Assembly: GCA_945878635.1 (NCBI GenBank)
Contig: CAMCTV010000004.1
Span: 1 to 64,000, forward strand
Origin: Chryseobacterium gleum
GTDB lineage: Bacteria; Bacteroidota; Bacteroidia; Flavobacteriales_D; Sanyastnellaceae
Direction of reading: 5' to 3'
Length of the DNA stretch: 64,000 bases
Numbering within the stretch: the stretch's first letter is position 1; the number at the start of each line of letters is the position of its first letter. Below, piece by piece: positions 23,712 to 51,302 of the stretch. Made by a program: the position numbers and the translations under genes. The notes beneath the pieces were generated by a model that saw only the letters and a program-made list of their open reading frames with translations, was not told the origin of the DNA and ran no database searches.

Positions 23712-25319
23712 ATGAACCATGTAGGTACCCGTCCTGAAGGAGCAACACTCGATTATTTGGGACTAAAAAATTTGGCTACGGCCTTTTGGAATCTTTCTCC
23801 AGCGGAATTGGTAGAAGAAACCATCTCACTTGAACAAGGAAGTCTAACCAGCACAGGTGCCATTGCGATTGACACCGGTGAGTTTACTGGTCGTTCTCCC
23901 AAGGACAAGTTTATTGTGAAAGACAGCAAAACAGAAAACTCTGTTTGGTGGAGCCAATTCAACATTCCTTTCGAAAGCGCTAAGTTTGATCGCTTATTCG
24001 AAAGAATGCAAGCTTACTTGACAGGCAGAGAAGTTTATGTTCGCGATGCTTATGTGTGCGCTGACCCACGCTACCGAATGAACGTGCGTGTGGTAACAGA
24101 ATTTCCTTGGAGCAATATGTTTGCCTATAACATGTTCATGCGCCCTTCCAAAGAAGAGTTGAAAACCATTCAACCTGATTGGCATGTCATCTGCGTTCCC
24201 GGATTCATGGCTGATGCAGAAACCGATGGTACAAGACAACATAATTTTGCAGTGATTGACTTTGCCAAAAAAATGGCCATCATCGGAGGTACTGGATATA
24301 CTGGAGAAATTAAAAAAGGAATATTTACTGTATTAAACTACGTTCTACCGCATGAAAAGGGAGTGCTTCCCATGCATTGCTCTGCCAATGTTGGTAAAGA
24401 CGGAGATACCGCCGTATTTTTTGGATTAAGTGGAACGGGAAAGACAACCTTATCCTCTGATCCCAATCGTCAGCTCATTGGTGATGATGAGCACGGATGG
24501 ACAGATACCACGGTATTCAATTTTGAAGGAGGATGTTATGCAAAAACCATTGATCTTACCAAAGAGAAAGAACCTCAAATCTATGACGCCATTAAGTTTG
24601 GTGCCATTTTGGAGAATATTGGATTTGAGGAAGATGGTGTCACCCCCGATTACGAAGACAAATCAAGAACCGAAAACACACGCGTCAGCTACCCCATTCA
24701 CCACATTGACAATGTGATAAATCCTAGCATGGGCGGTATTCCCAAGAATATTTTCTTCTTAACCTGCGATGCATTTGGTGTATTGCCTCCCATCAGTAAG
24801 TTGACCAAAGGCCAAGCCATGTATCAGTTCATCAGCGGTTATACAGCCAAAGTAGCAGGTACTGAAGCTGGAATTACTGAGCCCACAACCACATTTAGTG
24901 CTTGTTTCGGCGCTCCTTTCCTTCCACTTCATCCAACACAATATGCAGAGATGATGGGTAAGAAAATTGATGAAAGCGGAGCCAAGGTTTGGTTGATCAA
25001 CACCGGATGGAGCGGTGGTTCTTATGGAACAGGCGAACGCATGAAATTGAAATTTACTCGTGCCATGATCACAGCAGCTTTGGAAGGAAAATTGGACCAT
25101 GTTGAATTCAAAACCCACGAGGTTTTTGGTTTATCAATGCCCACCTCTTGTCCTGACGTTCCTGCGGAATTATTGGATCCAAAATCTACTTGGAAAGATG
25201 GATCTGCTTATGATGCAAAGGCCAATGAACTGGCTGAAAAGTTTGTTGCTAATTTCGAAAAATTCAGAGAGTTTGCCAATGAAGAAATCATGGCAGCTGC
25301 TCCAAAAATTACGGCATGA
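23712..25319 (+). CDS. pckA: Phosphoenolpyruvate carboxykinase (ATP)
   Basis: 535 residues, full length. It converts oxaloacetate and ATP to phosphoenolpyruvate, ADP and CO2, the first step of gluconeogenesis. Clear family motifs are TGRSPKDKFIV near residue 60, MHCSANVG, the P-loop FGLSGTGKTTLSSDP and the following GDDEHGW. The GLSGTGKTTL loop marks the ATP type, not the GTP type. Its TGA overlaps the hutH ATG (ATGA), so the two are translationally coupled, which fits growth on amino acids feeding into gluconeogenesis. Confidence 0.98.
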   Translation: MNHVGTRPEGATLDYLGLKNLATAFWNLSPAELVEETISLEQGSLTSTGAIAIDTGEFTGRSPKDKFIVKDSKTENSVWWSQFNIPFESAKFDRLFERMQAYLTGREVYVRDAYVCADPRYRMNVRVVTEFPWSNMFAYNMFMRPSKEELKTIQPDWHVICVPGFMADAETDGTRQHNFAVIDFAKKMAIIGGTGYTGEIKKGIFTVLNYVLPHEKGVLPMHCSANVGKDGDTAVFFGLSGTGKTTLSSDPNRQLIGDDEHGWTDTTVFNFEGGCYAKTIDLTKEKEPQIYDAIKFGAILENIGFEEDGVTPDYEDKSRTENTRVSYPIHHIDNVINPSMGGIPKNIFFLTCDAFGVLPPISKLTKGQAMYQFISGYTAKVAGTEAGITEPTTTFSACFGAPFLPLHPTQYAEMMGKKIDESGAKVWLINTGWSGGSYGTGERMKLKFTRAMITAALEGKLDHVEFKTHEVFGLSMPTSCPDVPAELLDPKSTWKDGSAYDAKANELAEKFVANFEKFREFANEEIMAAAPKITA

Positions 25320-26785
25320 TACTACCTACTTCTGACATTACATTGTCAGCTTTAAAAGATCTGTTTTACGCATCGGAGAGCCTTGAGCTCTCCGATGTTG
25401 CAATACAACAAATCCAAAAAGCCCGCACCTATCTCGACTCGTTCAGTGGCGAGAATGGATCACCTGTATATGGCGTCAATACTGGGTTTGGTTCATTGTG
25501 CAACACCATCATCAAAGATGAGGAGATGGGATTGTTGCAAAAGAATTTACTCATTTCTCATGCATGCGGAATGGGTGAAAAGGTTTCGCAAGAAATTGTA
25601 CGCTTGATGCTCTTACTCAAAGTAAAAGGACTGAGCAAAGGATTCAGCGGTGTGCAAATGGAAACGGTACAATTGCTGTTGGACTTATACAACAACAAGA
25701 TGACACCCGTTGTTTATGAGCAAGGCTCCTTGGGTGCCAGTGGCGACTTGGCACCCCTGTCTCATCTCTGTTTGCCATTGTTGGGATTGGGGGAAGTGAA
25801 CCACCAAGGAAAAGTCATCTCTGGACAAGAGGCTCTAAACATTTTGGGCAAACAACCGATTGTATTAAAAAGCAAAGAAGGATTGGCGCTTATCAACGGC
25901 ACCCAATTCATGAGCGCTTATGCCACCTTTAATGTATGGCGCGCACAAGATGCCATCAACAAAGCCAACCTTACAGGAGCCATGAGCTTAGAGGCTTATG
26001 ACGGTCGAACAGAACCCTTTTTACATGCCTTACACGCCGTGCGTCCACACGCAGGGCAGTTGCACATTGCTGCGCAATTCCGTGGGCTTTTGGAAGGATC
26101 TTCGATTGCTTCACAAGAAAAAGCACATGTGCAAGACCCTTATAGTTTTCGCTGCATACCACAAGTACATGGTGCCTCATGGGACACGTTGCAATATGTG
26201 ACAACCGTGGTGGAAACGGAAATCAACGCCGTAACGGACAATCCAGTGGTTCTTGTGGATGAAAACAAAATCATCAGCGGTGGACATTTTCACGGACAGC
26301 CGCTGGCTTTGGTGCTTTCCTACCTGACAATAGCCATGGCTGAAATCGGGAGCATCTCAGAAAGAAGAATTTACAAATTGATCAGTGGAACGCGAAATCT
26401 ACCTGCATTTTTGACACCCAACCCAGGATTGAATTCAGGCTTCATGATTGTGCAATACACCGCTGCATCGATTGTATCACAAAACAAACAATGGTGTACA
26501 CCAGCTGTCATTGACACCATCGACAGCAGCAATGGACAAGAGGATCATGTGAGTATGGGGGCCAATGCCGCAACGCAATTGCACCGCGTGTTGGACAATG
26601 TCGAAAAAATTATTGGACTGGAAGCATTCACAGCAGCACAAGCATTGGGATTTAGACGCCCATTACAATCTTCTCCCAAGATTGAAGAAGCCCACCAATC
26701 CATCCGACAAGTCATCCCATTCATCGAAACCGACACCTACATGAGCCCCTTGATGCATGCCGCTTTTGAGTGGGTGAAGGGATGA
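25316..26785 (+). CDS. hutH: Histidine ammonia-lyase
   Basis: 489 residues. It removes ammonia from L-histidine to give urocanate, the first step of histidine breakdown. The MIO cofactor forms from Ala141-Ser142-Gly143 in GSLGASGDLAPLSH, and the family Tyr is in VYGVNTGFGS (Tyr52). Other conserved parts are NGTQFMSAY, QDPYSFRCIPQVHG and DNPVV. No hutU or hutI is in the window, and the only hutG-like gene (46077) lacks key residues. Phenylalanine and tyrosine ammonia-lyases share the fold, but this reads as the histidine enzyme. Confidence 0.93.
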   Translation: MILPTSDITLSALKDLFYASESLELSDVAIQQIQKARTYLDSFSGENGSPVYGVNTGFGSLCNTIIKDEEMGLLQKNLLISHACGMGEKVSQEIVRLMLLLKVKGLSKGFSGVQMETVQLLLDLYNNKMTPVVYEQGSLGASGDLAPLSHLCLPLLGLGEVNHQGKVISGQEALNILGKQPIVLKSKEGLALINGTQFMSAYATFNVWRAQDAINKANLTGAMSLEAYDGRTEPFLHALHAVRPHAGQLHIAAQFRGLLEGSSIASQEKAHVQDPYSFRCIPQVHGASWDTLQYVTTVVETEINAVTDNPVVLVDENKIISGGHFHGQPLALVLSYLTIAMAEIGSISERRIYKLISGTRNLPAFLTPNPGLNSGFMIVQYTAASIVSQNKQWCTPAVIDTIDSSNGQEDHVSMGANAATQLHRVLDNVEKIIGLEAFTAAQALGFRRPLQSSPKIEEAHQSIRQVIPFIETDTYMSPLMHAAFEWVKG

Positions 26786-39985: not shown

Positions 39986-40861
39986 TCAATAATGCCAAAG
40001 ATCATGCTCGAACAAGAACAAGTCCTCTTTGATGCGCTCACTCTCTAGAATGGCTTTCATTGGATCTCTGTAATAATCTTCAATTCGACGATCATAAACA
40101 TTCTCTTCTTTCACAACGTAGGAAGAGAACATTCTCTTTTGGAACAAATCATCAAAAGTGATGGGTTGTGAAGTGTTGTGTAAATTGAAAACATCAGCAT
40201 TGGCAAACAAGTAACGACACTCTGGGAAATACAACCAGAAAGCAGGGTCATTTCTGATGATGGTTCCACCACCATACTGCTTCTCTACTACTGGAGCTAT
40301 ACCGATAATTCTAACATATCGCTCTGAACGTTGTTTATCAAAAATCCAGTCTTCCTTGATTTCATAATACTTCACCTTGTCTGCTGTGATAGGGATGATG
40401 GTATCACGTGTTCCAATCTGCTCACCGTTCTCATCAAATTCAGGAATCAAATCGGCATTAGCAGCTTCTTTCAAAGCATCTTCAGGAGATAAAGGAGTGC
40501 TAAACTCATCATCCGGCAATGTTGGATTGAAAGGGTTCTTGGTGCTGTAAGCCGTAATCTGTCCATCTTTGATACCATCTAGGATAACATCATACAAACA
40601 CTTGCGGTTTTTAATCGGAGTTGTAGGATAATACAGTGAATAGTTCATTTTCTGCTTTAAATCCACACGCTGCCAAATGCGCTTTTTCCACATCACATCC
40701 GCTTGACGCAAATATGGATAAGGCACTACGCGACGGGTTGGGTTATGCTCTGGAACATAAGCACCATCGAGTGCTGTTTGAGCATGAGTAGTCATGAACA
40801 AACCACAACTTGCGAGCAACAAAGCAATAAACTTCTTCATTTGTTTTTGTTTTTTATTCAA
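39986..40861 (-). CDS. gldN: Gliding motility/T9SS protein GldN
   Basis: 291 residues. Signal peptide after MNKKQKQ: MKKFIALLLASCGLFMTTHAQ, so it is periplasmic; the alternative start MKKF is at 40840. The body YPYLRQADVMWKKRIWQRVDLKQKMNYSLYYP is the hallmark of GldN/PorN. It binds the lipoprotein GldK and forms the periplasmic ring of the type IX secretion system. It overlaps the gldM stop by 8 bases. It is the last gene of the gld run, and a terminator follows. Confidence 0.97.
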   Translation of the reverse strand: MNKKQKQMKKFIALLLASCGLFMTTHAQTALDGAYVPEHNPTRRVVPYPYLRQADVMWKKRIWQRVDLKQKMNYSLYYPTTPIKNRKCLYDVILDGIKDGQITAYSTKNPFNPTLPDDEFSTPLSPEDALKEAANADLIPEFDENGEQIGTRDTIIPITADKVKYYEIKEDWIFDKQRSERYVRIIGIAPVVEKQYGGGTIIRNDPAFWLYFPECRYLFANADVFNLHNTSQPITFDDLFQKRMFSSYVVKEENVYDRRIEDYYRDPMKAILESERIKEDLFLFEHDLWHY

Positions 40862-42593
40862 CTTTCAAAGCGATATTTCCAAGGATACGTTCTCCACCGT
40901 CAGGACCTACGGCCACAATGTTAGAGAAGATTACGGTGCTTCCGGCTTTACAACCTGACAACGCGGCCTTCATGCTTGCATTTAAACGATCTCCTGATCC
41001 ATTTTCCTCAAATGGCTTACCGCCTGATGCGATGGTCATTGTATACTTCTTAACTTGGTAAGTAATACCATCAAAGATAAAATCAGGATCCATTTGGGCA
41101 AATACTTTATCACCTCCAGCCAAAGATCCTTTTGAGATTTTAGAATCACTTGATTTCTTACCAGCAAACATCGCAAATGGATCTGGAACACGCTTGATAC
41201 GGAATTCCTTGGATCCCATTGACTTTTGCTCACCATTAATTTGAGCAGATACACTGATGGTTGCGATCTTTTGATTCTTGTCAGGCTTGATCATGTATGA
41301 ACCGCTCTTTACTTTGTTCATCTGCTCACAACCTTGACAAGTTGCATTGATCTCACCATTTGCTCCGGGAACAGAAATTTCAACCGGGTTCTCCAAACCT
41401 TTGTACAATACGTTACACTTCACAGCATTCACAACTGCAACGGGCTCCCCAACAAAGAAAGCAGGTACCACGAAAGGAATGTACTCTGGTTTTCCGTTCT
41501 TCATGTACTCAATTTGACCTTTGTAGGCGTGAGGACCAACAGATAAACCACCTGTACTCACCTTGAAATGACATTTTCCTTCACTGTCCGATTCACCCTC
41601 TGGTGATCTTCCGCCAGTTTCAAATGCAGTAGGCGAAGCCTTCGGGTCTGTTTCACCAGCCATATAGATTTTATTCTTGCTGGACTTGTTGTAGGCAGCC
41701 AAATAAATCTCTGCTTCAAACTCTCCACCACGAATGATATAACTCTGCTTGGGAACAACAGCCACTGTAACGTCGTTGAACTTCATGTCCGTTGCGTTGA
41801 TACCAGCAGCCAATGACATACAAACGTTGTTTTTGACGTTCATTACATCCGTCTCAAACTTTGTCAAATTGGCCAAAACAGCGACCAAAGGCATATGATA
41901 GAAATTATTCACTTCCCAAGATTCTTCTTTACCATCTGAGGCCAAGTATGGACCATCAAAATTAAAGGTGCTTTTTATCGCGTCTTGCAAATCAACAGGT
42001 AAAGTAAAAGCTTCAGCCCCACTATCCGCACGTTCCACTCTAATGGCCAATAACTGATCTTTAAATTTCAACAATTTAGATTTCAAATCAGAGGCTGAAA
42101 AAGGATCATTTCTTGGTGATGCTGGCTCGTGACCGATTAGCAAAGAAGTGTTGTTTTGATTTTCGTCAGGCTTGGAGATAATCAACTTGCCATCCGCGTT
42201 CTTTTCATCCGCTGAAATTGCAATTCTCTTTACACCATCATCTTTCATAAACTCTTTCCAACCTTCACCCGTTTCATTGGCTTTTGATGAAGAAGCCATA
42301 ACATGGCCCTTCATCTCCTCAATGAAATTGATAAGATCATCTGAAATTTTATCCACTTCAGCTACAGCCTTTCGAAAAGGCACTGCCTTTGCTCCTTCTG
42401 CAGACGCATTGATTCCTTCAATGGTTCTTTGCGACTTCTCTTCCAAAATTGTGTTGGTCTTTCCCAATCCTTTTTGAATTTGAATGAACGCTTGCAAAAC
42501 ATCCTTAGAAATATTCATCGCCAACAGGGCTGTCAAGACGAGGTACATCATACCAATCATCTTCTGCCTGGGGGTTTCTTTACCGCCTGCCAT
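40854..42593 (-). CDS. gldM: Gliding motility/T9SS motor protein GldM
   Basis: 579 residues. MAGGKETPRQKMIGMMYLVLTALLAMNISKDVL: a short cytoplasmic start and one membrane helix near residues 12-33, then a long periplasmic part with D1-D4-type domains (QKGLGKTNTILEEKSQ; VVPKQSYIIRGGEFEAEIYLAAYNKS; later Ig-like domains). It pairs with GldL as the rotary motor of gliding and secretion, driven by the proton gradient, and contacts GldK/GldN in the periplasm. It lies 46 bases after gldL. Confidence 0.98.
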   Translation of the reverse strand: MAGGKETPRQKMIGMMYLVLTALLAMNISKDVLQAFIQIQKGLGKTNTILEEKSQRTIEGINASAEGAKAVPFRKAVAEVDKISDDLINFIEEMKGHVMASSSKANETGEGWKEFMKDDGVKRIAISADEKNADGKLIISKPDENQNNTSLLIGHEPASPRNDPFSASDLKSKLLKFKDQLLAIRVERADSGAEAFTLPVDLQDAIKSTFNFDGPYLASDGKEESWEVNNFYHMPLVAVLANLTKFETDVMNVKNNVCMSLAAGINATDMKFNDVTVAVVPKQSYIIRGGEFEAEIYLAAYNKSSKNKIYMAGETDPKASPTAFETGGRSPEGESDSEGKCHFKVSTGGLSVGPHAYKGQIEYMKNGKPEYIPFVVPAFFVGEPVAVVNAVKCNVLYKGLENPVEISVPGANGEINATCQGCEQMNKVKSGSYMIKPDKNQKIATISVSAQINGEQKSMGSKEFRIKRVPDPFAMFAGKKSSDSKISKGSLAGGDKVFAQMDPDFIFDGITYQVKKYTMTIASGGKPFEENGSGDRLNASMKAALSGCKAGSTVIFSNIVAVGPDGGERILGNIALKVE

Positions 42594-42639: not shown

Positions 42640-43464
42640 TTACTGACGTGCAGTACCCATTGCATTCAACATATTGGCATAAACCGTGTTCAATGACTTC
42701 AAGTTGTTGGCCAACTCGGAGATGTTCTCTTTGTAAAGCTTGGTATCGTCAACTGACTCAGAAAGGTTCTGAGCTAGGTTGTGCATGTCAGCATACAACT
42801 CACGTGTTTGAGACATTTCTTTCAATTGCAACTCGTACATGTTGTTCAATGCAGCCAAATTCTCAGACATCTTTTGCAAATGAGCTCCTGTAGTTTCTCC
42901 ACTCTTAGCTTGTTCAGCCATTTCTGTTAAACTCTCAGAAACCTGAGCATAAGTATCTGCCAAATTTGAAACTTTACCTGATGCAGAGCGCAGTGAACTA
43001 GCATACTCTGAAGCAGCAGCAGCAGCATCTGTAGTCTCGCCCAATTGCTTTGCGTTTTGGCTAAATGTCTTCATGCCTTCACCCAAACTAGCGATCAACT
43101 CAGGATCAACCTTTGCTTCTTCCAACATTTTATCCAATTGCTGAGACATACTTCCGCCAGCTGCACTTCCTGAACCAGAAACACCTCCAGCAACCTTGCC
43201 TTTGTTGGACTCTTTCAAACTTTTCTTACCTTCTTCTGGTAAGGACAATTCTGGATAAACCAATGACCAATCTGGATCCTCATGAAGGGGTTCAAAAGCT
43301 GAGAAGATAAAGATCAAGGCTTCAGTAGATAGACCCACGATCAACAAAAGTGAAGCGCCTGGCCAGTGCTCAATCTTGAACATCGCGCCGAAAATTACTA
43401 CCGCCGCACCAATACCATACAACTTCGACATAAAATTTTTCCACGCCTTGCTTCCTGGTTTCAT
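42640..43464 (-). CDS. gldL: Gliding motility/T9SS motor protein GldL
   Basis: 274 residues. Two membrane helices near residues 14-36 and 38-60 (LYGIGAAVVIFGAMFKIEHWPGASLLLIVGLSTEALIFIFSAF), with the conserved Glu in FKIEHWPGA that is needed for ion-driven rotation in GldL. The rest is cytoplasmic: a Gly/Ser-rich linker and a long coiled coil from about residue 105 (MSQQLDKMLEEAK ... SLNTVYANMLNAMG). It forms the pentameric channel around two GldM. Confidence 0.98.
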   Translation of the reverse strand: MKPGSKAWKNFMSKLYGIGAAVVIFGAMFKIEHWPGASLLLIVGLSTEALIFIFSAFEPLHEDPDWSLVYPELSLPEEGKKSLKESNKGKVAGGVSGSGSAAGGSMSQQLDKMLEEAKVDPELIASLGEGMKTFSQNAKQLGETTDAAAAASEYASSLRSASGKVSNLADTYAQVSESLTEMAEQAKSGETTGAHLQKMSENLAALNNMYELQLKEMSQTRELYADMHNLAQNLSESVDDTKLYKENISELANNLKSLNTVYANMLNAMGTARQ

Positions 43465-43514: not shown

Positions 43515-44897
43515 TTATTCCATTTCCATTGGAGCGTTAAACTCTCCATCTGCAGCCGATTTTCCACGACCCAAATAACTCATCACACAACGGAATCCAA
43601 TGTAAGATTTTGCTGTATCCTGATACTCATAAGAGCGAGTACCCGTTTGAACAAAATATCCGATATCCTTCCAGCTACCACCGCGGATAACCTTGCGCTT
43701 CAATGAGGGGGGATCATGTGTAGTTGAGCGGTATTGATACTCCGGAGACAAGTCGTGACTGAACTCATAAACACTTTCATCATAAGCGGTGTTTGTCCAC
43801 TCAGCAACATTACCAGACATATTGTACAATCCGTAATCATTGGGTGAGTAGGAATAAATAGGAACGGTATGACATCCATTGTCTTCTACATAGTCACCAC
43901 GCATTGGCTTGAAATTGGCCAATGGGCACCCCAAATAATTTCTTGTATAAGGACCTCCCCAAGGGTAGGGTGACAATTCCAATCCACCTCTTGAAGCAAA
44001 CTCCCATTCAGCCTCAGATGGTAAACGGAAACGCTGAATATAAGACATGCCATTGCTGTGACGGAAGTCGTTCATGATTTGACTTCTCCATGCACAGAAA
44101 GCTTGACACTGACCCCAAGACACACCCACTACTGGATAATCGTCATAAGCTGGATGCCAGAAATAATTCTCTGTCAAAGGCTCATTGAAACCATATGTGA
44201 AATCGTGAATCCAAACCAATGTATCCGGATAAACGTTAATTTCTTCTTCGATAATGAATTTAGAACGATCATTGTGACCTTTGAAAGAGTGCAATTGATC
44301 CAATTGGTTGGGATTACTGAATTCATCCTTGCTCACCTTGCGTGTTGCGGCTTGCAAATCAATCCACCAAAAACGATACTTCAGTTTGCGTGTATCAATT
44401 TCCCAACGATCATAGAACTTCTCCTGACCTTGCAAATAAAAATTATCATACACCAAATCAAAAATTTCGTCATTGGAGTAATCAATGGGCTCTTCCCAAT
44501 TCAATACATAACCCTTGTTCACAAAACGCTCAAATTCTCTTCCATCCTCTCTTTCTTTCATGGAATATCCTTCGATATCATTTTGAGCCAAAACGTCCAA
44601 CATCAATGAATCTTTCACCCAGTAGACAAACTGGCGGTACTCATTGTTAGAAATTTCAGTTTGATCGATGTAAAATGCAGGAATGGTCACTGTTCTGTGA
44701 CGGCTATTCAAAGCATAAGGAACATCTTGATCACTTGGCCCCATGGTGTAGGAACCAAAATGAATATAATTCATGCCATAAGGATTGGCTTGAATCCATT
44801 CATCGCGGGGATAAACCCCCACCAATTCGCCACCGCCTGGTGCATAGCAACCAAAGAGAACGACAGCCATTAAGAAATACAAAAACGACTTTTTCAT
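43515..44897 (-). CDS. gldK: Gliding motility/T9SS lipoprotein GldK
   Basis: 460 residues. Lipoprotein signal MKKSFLYFLMAVVLFGC with Cys17 lipidated, so it is anchored in the outer membrane facing the periplasm. The body is an FGE/sulfatase-modifying type fold: YPVVGVSWGQCQAFCAWRS, RLPSEAEWEFASRGG, YNMSGNVAEWT and VIRGGSWKD. In GldK this fold has a structural role, not an enzymatic one. With GldN it builds the ring that links the motor to the outer-membrane translocon. It is the first gene of gldKLMN and has a perfect -7 element upstream. Confidence 0.97.
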   Translation of the reverse strand: MKKSFLYFLMAVVLFGCYAPGGGELVGVYPRDEWIQANPYGMNYIHFGSYTMGPSDQDVPYALNSRHRTVTIPAFYIDQTEISNNEYRQFVYWVKDSLMLDVLAQNDIEGYSMKEREDGREFERFVNKGYVLNWEEPIDYSNDEIFDLVYDNFYLQGQEKFYDRWEIDTRKLKYRFWWIDLQAATRKVSKDEFSNPNQLDQLHSFKGHNDRSKFIIEEEINVYPDTLVWIHDFTYGFNEPLTENYFWHPAYDDYPVVGVSWGQCQAFCAWRSQIMNDFRHSNGMSYIQRFRLPSEAEWEFASRGGLELSPYPWGGPYTRNYLGCPLANFKPMRGDYVEDNGCHTVPIYSYSPNDYGLYNMSGNVAEWTNTAYDESVYEFSHDLSPEYQYRSTTHDPPSLKRKVIRGGSWKDIGYFVQTGTRSYEYQDTAKSYIGFRCVMSYLGRGKSAADGEFNAPMEME

Positions 44898-44992: not shown

Positions 44993-45961
44993 TTAATACA
45001 AGAAACGTGGATTCACGTGATAAGTCTTGATGGGCTCTTGTGAAATATTGAAACAATAAGACAAAAACACCTCATGAGATCCTGTGCTGTAGTTGCGGAT
45101 TTCTGATGTGGTTAAATCATAGCTATATCCAATACGGAACAATTGATCAAATGTTGTTCTTCCTGAAACTTTCTGAGCAAACACTTTCTGGAATCCAAAC
45201 ATAGGAGAAATAGCATCCGTCATACGATAAGAAATTCCACCCCAAAGCATGTTCTTCCAAAGCACGTTCGCATTCACATCAATCGCAGGACTTGCTTTCA
45301 TGTCGGTCTTCATTAACAAGTTACTTCTCAATACCAAGTCTGAATTGATTGGATAATTGTAACCTCCGCATACATACATGTGGCGCGCCATCTCGTAATT
45401 CAAATCTTCCAACGCCGCTGCATTTAAATGTGTCAAAGAGACTCCTGCATAATAGCTATCTGGCTTGTAGAAACTCAATCCCAATGCTGCATCAAAAACC
45501 GTTGAACTTTGTTGCTTTTGCAAATCTGTAATCAAAGGATCATTGGCATCGATGTATTTCCAATCGGTTCCTAGAACCTTGTTTAACATACCCAATTGAA
45601 TTCCACCGGCAATCTTGTGAACACCAATCGTGTGGTGATAAGCAAAACTTCCTCTCATGATGGTATTGGATTCCAATCCCAATGTTTCACTAAAAGCACT
45701 CAGACCAAAACCCAAGGTTTGATCAGCCAACGGAGCGTGCCCGTTGTAATTAAACAAAGTGGTTTGAGGACTATTTTCAAAACCAGTCCATTGTGTTCTG
45801 TAAAATAACTGCAAACAATGCATTTTATCAACTCCAGCAAAGGCAGGATTGAAGGACATTCTATCAAACATCCACTGCGTCAACTGTGGATCCTGTTGCG
45901 CTTTGGTTATTGTCACAAATGACAAAATGGACAAAAGCGAAATGAATACTTTTTTCTTCAT
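44993..45961 (-). CDS. porP: PorP/SprF family type IX secretion membrane protein
   Basis: 322 residues from MKKKVF at 45961; a further upstream ATG at 45970 (MVIMKKKV) is possible. Signal peptide ending KAQQ, then DPQLTQWMFDRMSFNPAFAG, the standard opening of PorP/SprF proteins. The rest alternates beta strands of an outer-membrane barrel and ends in an aromatic residue. PorP-type proteins help attach or secrete gliding adhesins and interact with PorKN rings. The gene precedes gldK on the same strand with a 95-base gap. Confidence 0.94.
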   Translation of the reverse strand: MKKKVFISLLSILSFVTITKAQQDPQLTQWMFDRMSFNPAFAGVDKMHCLQLFYRTQWTGFENSPQTTLFNYNGHAPLADQTLGFGLSAFSETLGLESNTIMRGSFAYHHTIGVHKIAGGIQLGMLNKVLGTDWKYIDANDPLITDLQKQQSSTVFDAALGLSFYKPDSYYAGVSLTHLNAAALEDLNYEMARHMYVCGGYNYPINSDLVLRSNLLMKTDMKASPAIDVNANVLWKNMLWGGISYRMTDAISPMFGFQKVFAQKVSGRTTFDQLFRIGYSYDLTTSEIRNYSTGSHEVFLSYCFNISQEPIKTYHVNPRFLY

Positions 45962-46001
45962 AATTACCAAAATAGCCCTCTACTCTTTTTGGGTAGAAAT
46001 G

Positions 46002-46076: not shown

Positions 46077-47246
46077 CTATACCAGCTTTTGAAATGTCTT
46101 CCACCATCGGTTGGGAACTTCTTGGTTCATTGCTGTTTCGTAATCCTCATAACTGCATGGAACCAAATGATGTCGCTCATATCGCTCAGCAGATCCGGCA
46201 GGATAAGGCACATCCATCCACCATCGGTCTGTCAAGGTACTTTTATAAAAAATCAGTTCATCGCCTGTTTCATCCATCAAAACTGAATACCTGGTGTACC
46301 TTTCATAATCACCTTTAGGGAAATCGCCTTTGCGGTATAAAAATCCCTCGACAAAGCACCACACGCATTGGGCCAGTAATCCAGCTGACAATCCCCTGAT
46401 GTCAAGTTGTGGATTAAACTCATAGAACCCTATTGATGTCAATTTATCACTCATCCCGGCGTAGCGCGCAATCTGAGCCATTTCATTTCCAAACAATCCG
46501 TTTGCGGAGGGCTGACCAAATCCAGGATTTTCAGATTGTCTTACACTGCTCATGTCAATGGAAACAATATCTGCATTTCTGATCACTGGCTCAACATTCT
46601 TGATATCAGCCTGAATTTCTCCTAGGCGACTTGCCTCAAAATACATTTTCTCCATCAATACGGTAAGATCTTTGTCCGTGAGGTAACGCTGATGCCCCAA
46701 ATTGCTATAGTTAAAAAGATAATTGGGCTTGTGCAATACAATCTTGTTCAAATAACCTTCTGAGGATTGATCATCATGAGTGGTTGCAAAATCCAATCTG
46801 CGATCAACAGAAACCAGATTCACCGTTTGCTCCAAATTCTCATAGGCCAGGTAATTGCCGTAAGTAAGGTCTTGCGATCCACCGATGATAAGCGGAATAA
46901 TGTCCGCTTTGATCAAAGCTTCGCAGATGCTTCTCACCGCAAAAATCGTATCCTCAACGGTTGCCCCGGCTTGAATGTTTCCCAAATCCATGATTCGCGC
47001 GTCATCATCCCATTTGGTTAATGCATAGAAATAATCACGAAAAACGTGGCTGGATTGTGCGCATCCTAGATTGTGCATTGCATTCCTATCCTCTTCAACA
47101 CCAAACAGTGCAATTTTAACACCCTTCTCCCGCCAATCCTCATCTCCATGATAAAAAACAATATCATGAACCAATGAAGAAGCAGGCTCTGATTCCATTG
47201 ATCGATGGTGCCATTGACTAGGGGTAAGAAAAACTGAAAAATCCAT
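46077..47246 (-). CDS. Arginase/formimidoylglutamase-fold protein with lost metal ligands
   Basis: 389 residues. The fold follows the ureohydrolase (arginase, HutG) family, but the metal site is broken: GGDHS reads GGSQD (Gln125 for His), DAHxD reads DRRLD (Arg150 for His) and SxDxD reads SIDMS (Ser233 for Asp). Asp148, Asp152 and Asp231 remain. Three of six Mn ligands are therefore missing, and hydrolysis of formimidoylglutamate or arginine is unlikely. A C-terminal extension (from about 300) ends WWKTFQKLV. It lies between topA and porP-gldKLMN, all on the minus strand, so a structural or regulatory part in T9SS or gliding is plausible. Automated tools will probably call it HutG. Confidence 0.9.
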   Translation of the reverse strand: MDFSVFLTPSQWHHRSMESEPASSLVHDIVFYHGDEDWREKGVKIALFGVEEDRNAMHNLGCAQSSHVFRDYFYALTKWDDDARIMDLGNIQAGATVEDTIFAVRSICEALIKADIIPLIIGGSQDLTYGNYLAYENLEQTVNLVSVDRRLDFATTHDDQSSEGYLNKIVLHKPNYLFNYSNLGHQRYLTDKDLTVLMEKMYFEASRLGEIQADIKNVEPVIRNADIVSIDMSSVRQSENPGFGQPSANGLFGNEMAQIARYAGMSDKLTSIGFYEFNPQLDIRGLSAGLLAQCVWCFVEGFLYRKGDFPKGDYERYTRYSVLMDETGDELIFYKSTLTDRWWMDVPYPAGSAERYERHHLVPCSYEDYETAMNQEVPNRWWKTFQKLV

Positions 47247-47267
47247 TGTCCGAAATTAATCGGACAA
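47246..47267. promoter_or_regulatory. 8-bp inverted repeat at the start of the arginase-fold gene
   Basis: TTGTCCGA (47246-47253) and TCGGACAA (47260-47267) form a perfect inverted repeat with a 6-base spacer. It abuts the start codon of the gene at 47246. It could be an operator or a hairpin in the 5' end of the message. A weak -7 (TGCATTTG on the minus strand) lies just upstream. Confidence 0.45.
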
Positions 47268-47342: not shown

Positions 47343-49727
47343 CTACTTTTTCTTCGCTGCTGCTTTTTTAGGTGCGGCTTTCTTTGGCGCTGCCTTTTTA
47401 ACCGCTGCTTTCTTTACGGGAGCTTTGCGACCTTTTGATTTTCCTGAAGGCTTGCTGTTGGCCATGATCTCAATGATTTCTGGCAACGTCAAATTTTCAG
47501 CAACCACACCTTTAGGAATTTTGTAATTCTCCGTATCGGCTTTGATGTATGGACCAAATCTGCCTTTGATGACTTGAATCTCAGGACGCTCCTCAAAGGT
47601 CTTGATCAAATTGGCATTGATGCCATTGATTTTATCTTCTACAAGCTGAATAGCCCTTTCCAACTGAACGGTGTGGGGATCATCCCCCTCCTTCACCCGC
47701 AGTGATGCAAATGTCTTGTCCCACTTAATGTATGGCCCAAATCTTCCCAAACCAACTGCAATGGCTTTGCCATTCCACTCTCCCAATACTTTTGGGAATG
47801 AGAACAATTTCAACCCTTCCTCCAAAGAGATGCTGCTGATGCTTTGATCAGGACGCAATGAGGCAAACTTCTTTTCCTCATCGTCTGATGCGCCAATTTG
47901 AATAATGGGGCCAAATCGCCCTATTCTGGCGATTACAGGTTTACCGCTGGCTGGATCGATGCCCAATTCACGCTCTCCTGAAGCTCTGGACGCAGATTCA
48001 ATGGTGGTTTCGACAGATTTATGAAAAGGCTGATAAAACTTTCTCAACATTTCTCTCCAATCCATCTTCCCTTCCGCAATGATATCAAACTCCTCCTCCA
48101 CGTTCGCAGTAAAACTATAATCCAAAATGGTTGGGAAATAATTCACCAAGAAATCGTTGACCACAACGCCAATGTCTGTAGGAAATAATTTGCCTTTGTC
48201 GGCTCCCGTTCTTTCTGATTTGACTTCTGATACAATTTCTGAACCCTTCAATGTTATCACTTCAAATGATCGCAAAACACCATCCAATTCTTTCTTCTCA
48301 ACATATCCTCTTTGTTGAATGGTGCTGATGGTGGGGGCGTACGTAGAAGGACGACCGATTCCCAACTCCTCCAATTTCTTCACCAAACTAGCTTCCGAGT
48401 ATCTGCTGGGCTTTTGGGTATATCGCTGTGTTGCGATGATTTCTTTTCTTAATAATGTTTGTCCCACTTTCAATGGTGGCAACATGGCTGAATCACCCTC
48501 CTCGTTCTCCTCCTCCGTACTTTCAATGTACAGTTTCAAAAATCCGTCAAACTTGATCACCTGACCTTTTGCTACCAATTGCTCCGGTGTGGTTGAAATT
48601 GAAATCGTTGCTGTAGTATTTTCAAGCTCGGCATCGGCCATTTGAGATGCCATGGTGCGTTTCCAAATCAAATCATACAACTTCCTTTCACGATCATCAT
48701 TTCCAGCTTCTCTTACACCCATTTCCGTAGGACGAATGGCTTCGTGGGCCTCTTGCGCGCCTTTGGACTTGGACTGAAACTGACGTGTTTTAGAGTACTG
48801 CCCTCCAAAGGTTTTTACAATCTCATCCTTGGCTGCTCCTAAAGCAAATTCAGACAGATTCACGCTATCGGTACGCATATAGGTTATTTTTCCGGCCTCG
48901 TACAATTTCTGGGCAATGCTCATTGTGGCACTTACGCTGAATCCCAGCTTTCTTGACGCGTCCTGCTGCAATGTGGATGTTGTGAAAGGCGCTGCTGGGG
49001 TTCTTTTGGATGGCTTGGTCTCCAAATTGGCCACAGTAAATGTTGCGTTTTGGCACAACTCAATAAACGACCTTGCATCTGAACTTTGGTTCAATTTCCG
49101 CATCAGGTCTGCCTTCACTGTTGACCCATCAGCATCGAATATACCGCGCACATTAAAATATTGGGTGGCTGTAAAAGCATCGATTTCCTTTTCGCGATCA
49201 GCAATAATTCTCACCGCCACACTTTGAACGCGACCCGCGCTCAGGGATGGTTTTACTTTCTTCCAAAGCACTGGAGACAATTCAAAACCCACCAAGCGAT
49301 CCAATATTCTTCTGGCTTGTTGGGCATTCACCAAATCGATGTCCACCCTTCTTGGATGTTCAATGGCATTCAATATCGCTTTCTTGGTGATCTCGTGAAA
49401 AACAATTCTTTTGGTCTTTTGCTCTGGAATTTCCAATGCCTCCATCAAGTGCCATGAGATGGCCTCCCCCTCGCGGTCCTCATCCGTTGCCAACCAAACC
49501 ACCTCGGCCTTGTGTGCTAACTTTTTGAGCTCTCGAACCATGTCTCGTTTGTCTTCTGTCACCTCATATACCGGCTCAAAATCCTTGGTCATATCTATGG
49601 CCTGGTCTTTTTTTGGAAGATCACGCACATGCCCCATACTGGACTTTACAATAAAGTCTTTCCCCAAATAACCTTCAATGGTTTTTGCCTTTGCAGGGGA
49701 CTCCACGATCACCAAATTTTTGCTCAT
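47343..49727 (-). CDS. topA: DNA topoisomerase I
   Basis: 794 residues from MSKNLV at 49727; an earlier ATG at 49751 would lie in the predicted -7 element. It relaxes negatively supercoiled DNA by cutting one strand. The TOPRIM start LVIVESPAKAKTI, the ATDEDREGEAISWH metal block and the catalytic Tyr in ITYMRTDSVNLS are clear. The C-terminal part has GRFGPYIKWD-type repeats (PF13368-like) and no Cys4 zinc ribbons, the usual Bacteroidota form. It ends in a Lys/Ala tail (about 22 residues, KKAAPKKAA type) like a histone H1 tail. The gene starts a run towards porP and gldKLMN. Confidence 0.97.
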   Translation of the reverse strand: MSKNLVIVESPAKAKTIEGYLGKDFIVKSSMGHVRDLPKKDQAIDMTKDFEPVYEVTEDKRDMVRELKKLAHKAEVVWLATDEDREGEAISWHLMEALEIPEQKTKRIVFHEITKKAILNAIEHPRRVDIDLVNAQQARRILDRLVGFELSPVLWKKVKPSLSAGRVQSVAVRIIADREKEIDAFTATQYFNVRGIFDADGSTVKADLMRKLNQSSDARSFIELCQNATFTVANLETKPSKRTPAAPFTTSTLQQDASRKLGFSVSATMSIAQKLYEAGKITYMRTDSVNLSEFALGAAKDEIVKTFGGQYSKTRQFQSKSKGAQEAHEAIRPTEMGVREAGNDDRERKLYDLIWKRTMASQMADAELENTTATISISTTPEQLVAKGQVIKFDGFLKLYIESTEEENEEGDSAMLPPLKVGQTLLRKEIIATQRYTQKPSRYSEASLVKKLEELGIGRPSTYAPTISTIQQRGYVEKKELDGVLRSFEVITLKGSEIVSEVKSERTGADKGKLFPTDIGVVVNDFLVNYFPTILDYSFTANVEEEFDIIAEGKMDWREMLRKFYQPFHKSVETTIESASRASGERELGIDPASGKPVIARIGRFGPIIQIGASDDEEKKFASLRPDQSISSISLEEGLKLFSFPKVLGEWNGKAIAVGLGRFGPYIKWDKTFASLRVKEGDDPHTVQLERAIQLVEDKINGINANLIKTFEERPEIQVIKGRFGPYIKADTENYKIPKGVVAENLTLPEIIEIMANSKPSGKSKGRKAPVKKAAVKKAAPKKAAPKKAAAKKK

Positions 49728-49748
49728 TTCAATCTTTTTAGACGGCGA

Positions 49749-49780
49749 CAAATGTATAGGTAAAAAATTGGGTTCTCCAA
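49749..49780 (-). promoter_or_regulatory. topA promoter
   Basis: On the minus strand TTTTTTG (its TTG at 49780-49778) is followed after 21 bases by TACATTTG (49756-49749), an exact TAnnTTTG -7. The topA ATG at 49727 lies 21 bases downstream. This is the best-matching promoter in the window. Confidence 0.55.
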
Positions 49781-49853: not shown

Positions 49854-51302
49854 GTGGAGGAAAAAAACATAGATGAAAGCCGTCAAGGGGAGTTCTTGAT
49901 GGTTGAGGATAGCGCTCCGCTTCCCGAAAATAGAAAGCAAAAAAAAATGCTTTTAGAAAGCTACGGTTGTCAGATGAATTTTTCTGACAGCGAAATCGTT
50001 GCTTCCATTTTAACCCAACAAGGTTATGTAACTACCCGAGATGCTGAAGAAGCAGATTTGATTTTGCTCAATACCTGTGCTATCCGTGACAATGCGGAAC
50101 AGCGCGTTCGTGGTCGTCTTCAATTTTTTCAAACTTTGAAAAAGAAAAATCCTGACCTTCAAGTGGGGGTTTTGGGATGCATGGCTGAGCGACTGCGCGA
50201 GCAATTGTTGGAACAAGAGAAATTGGTGGATTTGGTGGTAGGTCCTGATGCATACCGCGATCTACCCAACCTATTGGATAAAATTGACGGAGGACAAAAA
50301 GCAGTCAATGTATTGCTCAGTAGAGAAGAAACGTATGCAGAAATTACTCCAGTTCGTTTGAATAGCAATGGTGTCACCGCTTTTATCTCCATCATGCGCG
50401 GTTGTGACAACATGTGTTCATTCTGTGTCGTGCCCTTTACCCGCGGTAGAGAGCGCAGCAGAGATCCGGAAAGCATCGTAGGAGAAGCCAAAGAGTTGTT
50501 TGAAAAAGGATACCGCGAGGTCACACTATTGGGACAAAACGTTGACAGTTACAAATGGAACATCAACAACAAGGGTGAGATTTTAGATGCACAATTGCCT
50601 ACCGTGAATTTTGCCCAATTGTTGGAAAAAGTAGCCTTGGTTTCTCCCGACTTGAGGGTCCGTTTCAGCACCAGCCACCCCAAAGACATGACCGATGATG
50701 TATTGCACATCATGGCGCAATATGAGAATATATGCAAATACATTCACTTGCCTGTGCAAAGCGGTAACAGTGAGGTCCTGAAAAAAATGAATCGTGGTTA
50801 TACCCGTGAGTGGTATTTGTCACGCATTGATTCCATCAAAAACATCATGCCCGATTGCGCCATTTCAACGGATGTCATTGCAGGATTCTGTGGTGAAACA
50901 GAAGAACAGCACCAAGAGACCATCAGCCTGATGAGTCAGGTGGGCTATGATATGGCCTATATGTTCAAATACAGCGAGCGCCCAAAAACATTGGCTGAGC
51001 GCAAATATGAGGACGACGTTCCTGAAGAAATAAAAGGAAGACGATTAACAGAAATCATTGACAACCAAATGAAACAGAGTGCAATTTGCACCAAAAAACA
51101 CATTGGAAAAGTTCAGCGGGTTTTGGTTGAAGGTATATCCAAAAAATCTGAGGAACATTTGTATGGTCGCAATAGCCAAAATGTGGTTTGTATTTTTCCG
51201 AAAAATGAAATTCAAATAGGAGATTATGTTGATGTTGAAATGAAGGATTGCACCTCCATCACATTGACAGGTGAAGTAGTTGCGCATTATCCAAGGAAAT
51301 AA
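49854..51302 (+). CDS. miaB: tRNA-2-methylthio-N6-dimethylallyladenosine synthase
   Basis: 482 residues from a GTG start (49854); the first ATG (49899) lies 15 codons later and is also before the conserved part. It adds a methylthio group to i6A37 in tRNA with radical SAM chemistry and two iron-sulfur clusters. The N-terminal UPF0004 domain starts [15 protein letters not shown] and includes [11 protein letters not shown] and [11 protein letters not shown]; the radical SAM motif is [23 protein letters not shown] domain follows at the C-terminus. It opens the run miaB, sigma-54 activator, lptE, TPR gene, secG. Confidence 0.97.

Follow-up and report, generated by a model that had tools for sequence, protein, structure and literature searches.

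A gene that lies between topA and the porP–gldKLMN genes encodes a 389-aa protein that has the fold of the ureohydrolases but not the complete metal site on which those enzymes depend, and we propose, with moderate confidence, that this protein is a pseudoenzyme of the cytoplasm that was recruited to help assemble T9SS or to control its motor. Gliding and secretion in the Bacteroidota, fish and gum pathogens among them, are powered by T9SS, of whose cytoplasmic side little is known. That the protein acts in T9SS or gliding we infer from its gene neighborhood and its phyletic pattern. In the window (the whole 64,000-nucleotide stretch of DNA analyzed here) the gene and its neighbors are the following.

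47343..49751, minus strand: topA, DNA topoisomerase I, the upstream neighbor, separated by 96 bp from the pseudo-ureohydrolase gene
46077..47246, minus strand: pseudo-ureohydrolase gene, 389 aa, an open reading frame without an internal stop
44993..45970, minus strand: porP/sprF-family gene, the downstream neighbor, 106 bp from the pseudo-ureohydrolase gene
43515..44897, minus strand: gldK
42640..43464, minus strand: gldL (motor protein)
40854..42593, minus strand: gldM (motor protein)
39986..40861, minus strand: gldN

The order on this single strand is thus topA, the pseudo-ureohydrolase gene, porP, gldK, gldL, gldM and gldN, with further gaps of 95 bp (porP–gldK), 50 bp (gldK–gldL) and 46 bp (gldL–gldM) and an 8-bp overlap between gldM and gldN. 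Profile matches of the neighbors confirmed the first-pass annotation, which had placed the gene inside a co-stranded topA–porP–gldKLMN cluster. Because neither a signal peptide nor a transmembrane segment was apparent in the hydropathy of the 389-aa protein, we take it to be cytoplasmic. Immediately before the gene, at window positions 47247-47266, there is a perfect 7-bp inverted repeat (TGTCCGA-TTAATT-TCGGACA on the gene strand) that ends at the start codon and is retained in the two closest relatives (L004 and L005); three other loci (L006, L007 and L009) have terminator-like hairpins and a TATTTTCG element instead. A general promoter and a general terminator before the family gene were both rejected, since of 100 topA–gene gaps just 19 contain TAnnTT[TC]G and 7 have a hairpin that resembles a terminator. 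Divergent from topA in the window is miaB (49854-51302, plus strand), and L048, L056, L071, L088, L089 and L093 likewise have a MiaB-like gene next to topA.

Membership of the ureohydrolase superfamily is supported by a score of 68.4 bits against the Pfam Arginase profile (PF00491; cut-off 22), the arginase fold spanning residues about 13–307. An AlphaFold2 model of the protein (66 sequences; mean pLDDT 91.4, pTM 0.92) matches best the T. cruzi formiminoglutamase 4myn (Z 37.8, rmsd 2.0, 278 aligned residues, 19% identity, residues 18–306); the model likewise matches B. subtilis HutG over residues 14–307 (Z 35.6), and metformin hydrolase chains come next among its best structural matches. Consistent with the arginase fold that had been recognized at first reading, the motifs GGS (residues 122–124), DxxxD (D148 to D152) and SID (229–231) are present. 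The positions that correspond to the six metal ligands of arginase are listed below; their assignment to Mn-A or Mn-B is taken from arginase I and is presumed to apply here.

46872..46874, minus strand: Gln125 codon, arginase His101 position, Mn-A ligand
46803..46805, minus strand: Asp148 codon, arginase Asp124, bridging ligand, kept
46797..46799, minus strand: Arg150 codon, arginase His126 position, Mn-B ligand, lost
46791..46793, minus strand: Asp152 codon, arginase Asp128, Mn-A ligand, kept
46554..46556, minus strand: Asp231 codon, arginase Asp232, bridging ligand, kept
46548..46550, minus strand: Ser233 codon, arginase Asp234 position, Mn-B ligand, lost

Alignment with intact relatives equates arginase H101, D124, H126, D128, D232 and D234 with Q125, D148, R150, D152, D231 and S233, respectively, and so bears out the earlier observation that His has given way to Gln125, His to Arg150 and Asp to Ser233 at three of the six ligand positions; the protein does not have the six-ligand binuclear site of an active ureohydrolase. 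(Note that Gln at the first position is not diagnostic by itself: an otherwise complete relative, L179, has Asn there, and 4myn is listed with an "N114H variant", which implies that wild-type formiminoglutamase has Asn at residue 114, presumably the ligand that corresponds to the Gln125 position.) The loss is lopsided across 151 relatives that bear the C-terminal extension described below. None of them has all six ligands, and the His and Asp that serve Mn-B only are gone (column 150 is His in 7 sequences and column 233 is Asp in 6, never both together), whereas the Mn-A-type set (H/Q/N125, D148, D/N152 and D231) is intact in 138, with Asp152 in 128. Since the loss is common to all 151, it is not a matter of chance. 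The 11 extension-free relatives keep five or six ligands (HDHDDD in 8, one-letter variants in 3) together with the S-G-[ST] substrate loop, which is lost in the extension-bearing family. Thus, of the three substitutions whose conservation was in question, the exact residues in the Arg150 and Ser233 columns vary while the absence of Mn-B ligands is conserved; no homologue in the same position with all six ligands was found, and the earlier designation as a pseudoenzyme is supported as regards ureohydrolase chemistry. The idea that one fixed basic residue takes the place of metal B was rejected, column 150 being R in 40 sequences, K in 32 and many other residues elsewhere. In two families, f15 and f17, the Mn-A set has been lost too and the gene has nonetheless been retained, which argues that no metal is universally needed. 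The six positions read N-S-I-S-N-D in the f15 copies (L162-L167), where hardly anything of the site is left, and topA is still adjacent in some of them; f17 members L168, L169 and L171 are much shortened, with the central ureohydrolase region largely deleted and the extension retained.

The extension itself is the marker of the family.

46080..46337, minus strand: C-terminal extension, residues 304-389 (~85 residues), FYKS..SDRWWM ... PC.Y.DY..A ... PDRWWKT.QKL

It carries invariant RWW, PC and W motifs, is absent from ureohydrolases and gave no match in Pfam. Comparison of the predicted fold of the extension alone (pLDDT 80) with the PDB returned no significant match; the WGR domain of PARP1/PARP2 recurred at Z 2-3, below any useful level, and was discarded.

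The closest known enzyme, HutG formimidoylglutamase (TIGR01227; 3m1r, 4mxr and 1xfk), is the best profile and fold match and shares the core of residues 13–307. Unlike HutG, the 389-aa protein has lost both Mn-B ligands along with the substrate loop, adds the C-terminal extension and falls in a separate clade. It scored 89.9 bits against the hutG profile, for which the NCBI cut-off is 229, so that the hutG name would not be assigned by that threshold. The concern of the first-pass annotation that the protein would wrongly complete a histidine pathway did not hold up. In addition to hutH in the window (25316-26785; 599 bits over 539), the genome contains hutU (412 bits over 375), hutI (353 bits over 298) and an FtcD-type protein (FTCD_N, 228 bits, in a 566-aa frame), which leaves nothing to complete. 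We accordingly rejected the 389-aa protein as a missing step: the genome supplies the last step of the pathway by other means, and the protein is not needed for histidine degradation.

The family is widespread, old and well maintained. The 389-aa protein has matches in 27 of 30 near relatives and in at least 582 stretches of the GTDB collection, and a 29-row profile found the family in 373 of 396 genomes of the class (~94%), three of these matches (G025, G393 and G535) being weak and possibly true ureohydrolases or fragments. Those relatives from outside the class that were compared are without the extension. In a tree of the arginase part, which came from a short search and contains two long branches, a single branch with SH-aLRT 100 separates extension-bearing rows from ureohydrolases; as judged from these sequences, the site was therefore most likely lost in one old lineage. 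Values of dN/dS against the two closest relatives, 0.0124/0.31 (0.040) and 0.0214/0.759 (0.028), indicate that the protein is maintained under strong purifying selection and is not decaying. In one genome (L154 and G261:C1:1547599-1548735) the pseudoenzyme occurs alongside a complete HutG-like enzyme (HDHDDD).

Gene order and co-occurrence bear both on a role in T9SS and on its main competitor, a housekeeping role outside T9SS in which the protein would bind a metabolite, a nucleic acid or a metabolic enzyme, the gldKLMN linkage would be inherited and the co-occurrence would follow from the near-universality of T9SS in the class. We regard this competitor as possible but doubtful. Among named loci, which were picked by similarity to the query so that the figures are inflated, 52 of 75 have topA as the immediate upstream neighbor, and 36 of 63 have gldK/L no farther than 3 kb downstream; within the stretch read at 27 near-relative loci, topA was present in 25 and porP or gldK in 23. 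Whether the gene stays beside gldKLMN depends on the lineage: Flavobacteriales show strong linkage, as does f16 (topA–gene–gldK in 19/19 loci), but in f13, f14, f18 and f19 the gene is located at a distance from T9SS genes. The arrangement is common and not universal. The loss of linkage in these four families, the position of topA as the most constant neighbor and an overlap or gap of <20 bp between topA and the gene in 47 of 100 loci all favor the housekeeping role, and the gene order may be linkage with topA that was inherited. Pointing the other way, the much-eroded copy in the three f17 genomes adjoins murF–gldJ (the cluster of L168 also has porP and porU). Although these copies are not co-directional with gldJ, the neighborhood is suggestive of a second T9SS association, in which the relocation was probably one event.

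GldN was found in 387 of the 396 class genomes and, outside the class, in none of the phylum sample. Family and GldN occur together in 370 genomes, GldN only in 17, the family only in 3 and neither in 6, an association with an odds ratio of 44 (Fisher p 1.5e-6, uncorrected for shared descent) that speaks against the housekeeping role. GldM, too, is missing from all six genomes that have neither the family nor GldN, which again favors a link with T9SS; they are just six, however, and five come from one family. Two of the three family-only genomes have GldM and are drafts, 95-97% complete. In the third (G497, family f13, 99% complete) neither GldN nor GldM was seen and the gene is kept, which fits a housekeeping role and is a real counter-example to co-occurrence unless the assembly misses the region. 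Conversely, the 17 genomes that have GldN only (from families f20, f21 and f102 and a few others) indicate that the gene is not an obligatory part of T9SS.

If the protein was indeed recruited to T9SS, it would dock from the cytoplasm on the GldL/GldM motor or on regulators of the motor, and docking would help T9SS assembly or set motor output. This is a guess from the compartment and from the precedent of PorX and PorL: PorX, a cytoplasmic T9SS response regulator, is described as binding the motor subunit PorL (PMC5005315). PorX resembles the pseudoenzyme in being cytoplasmic and in the kind of role proposed, binding to the motor, and differs in its unrelated fold and family. A single metal ion may still bind at the Mn-A-type set, to judge from the residues retained, and might stabilize the pseudoenzyme or tune binding. 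We think it rather unlikely, though worth stating, that the family is an unrecognized class-wide T9SS/gliding accessory whose half metal site senses a metal or metabolite and whose extension binds the motor or its regulators, coupling the state of the cell to secretion and gliding.

The same retained residues raise the possibility, which we judge improbable, that the protein is still an enzyme that uses one metal ion, bound by the Mn-A-type set, for a different substrate or reaction. The intactness of that set in 138/151 sequences and the many invariant polar residues of the family (e.g. R70, D99, Q186, R207, E219 and R223) would suit such an enzyme. However, f15 and f17 lost the set and kept the gene, the S-G-[ST] substrate loop of the enzymes is not conserved and, to our knowledge, no ureohydrolase works without the Mn-B ligands. 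Very improbable is a catalytically silent partnership with an active ureohydrolase, after the manner of metformin hydrolase, in which the arginase-fold pseudoenzyme MetCb activates MetCa (PMC11271267): metformin hydrolase chains rank high among the structural matches, a further PF00491 protein is encoded in most genomes and the window's own genome has one that is agmatinase-like, but a complete ureohydrolase lay beside the gene in none of the loci read, and in G126, G357 and G412 the family member is the sole PF00491 protein and so needs no enzyme partner of its own kind, for which reason an obligate MetCaCb-like partnership was rejected for the family as a whole.

Pseudoenzymes of related fold are already known; the T9SS context of this family is new. 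MetCb/MfmB is likewise a ureohydrolase-fold pseudoenzyme that serves as a protein binder, but it pairs with the gene of an active subunit, whereas the present family has no obligate partner and sits in a T9SS neighborhood. The Trypanosoma brucei arginase-like protein TbARG, which reportedly has no binuclear Mn cluster, is similar by description in combining an arginase fold with lost metal ligands, and differs in being eukaryotic and in its unrelated genomic setting. Within the open-access literature, we found no link, from mutants or otherwise, between an arginase or formimidoylglutamase and T9SS or gliding.

These findings counsel caution against annotating genes of the family as formimidoylglutamases, and they provide a series, well sampled, in which an active site is lost step by step. 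For the biology of T9SS, they present as a candidate a protein with a dead active site that is found in ~94% of the sampled genomes of the class, is under strong selection and often has its gene at the head of the core cluster.
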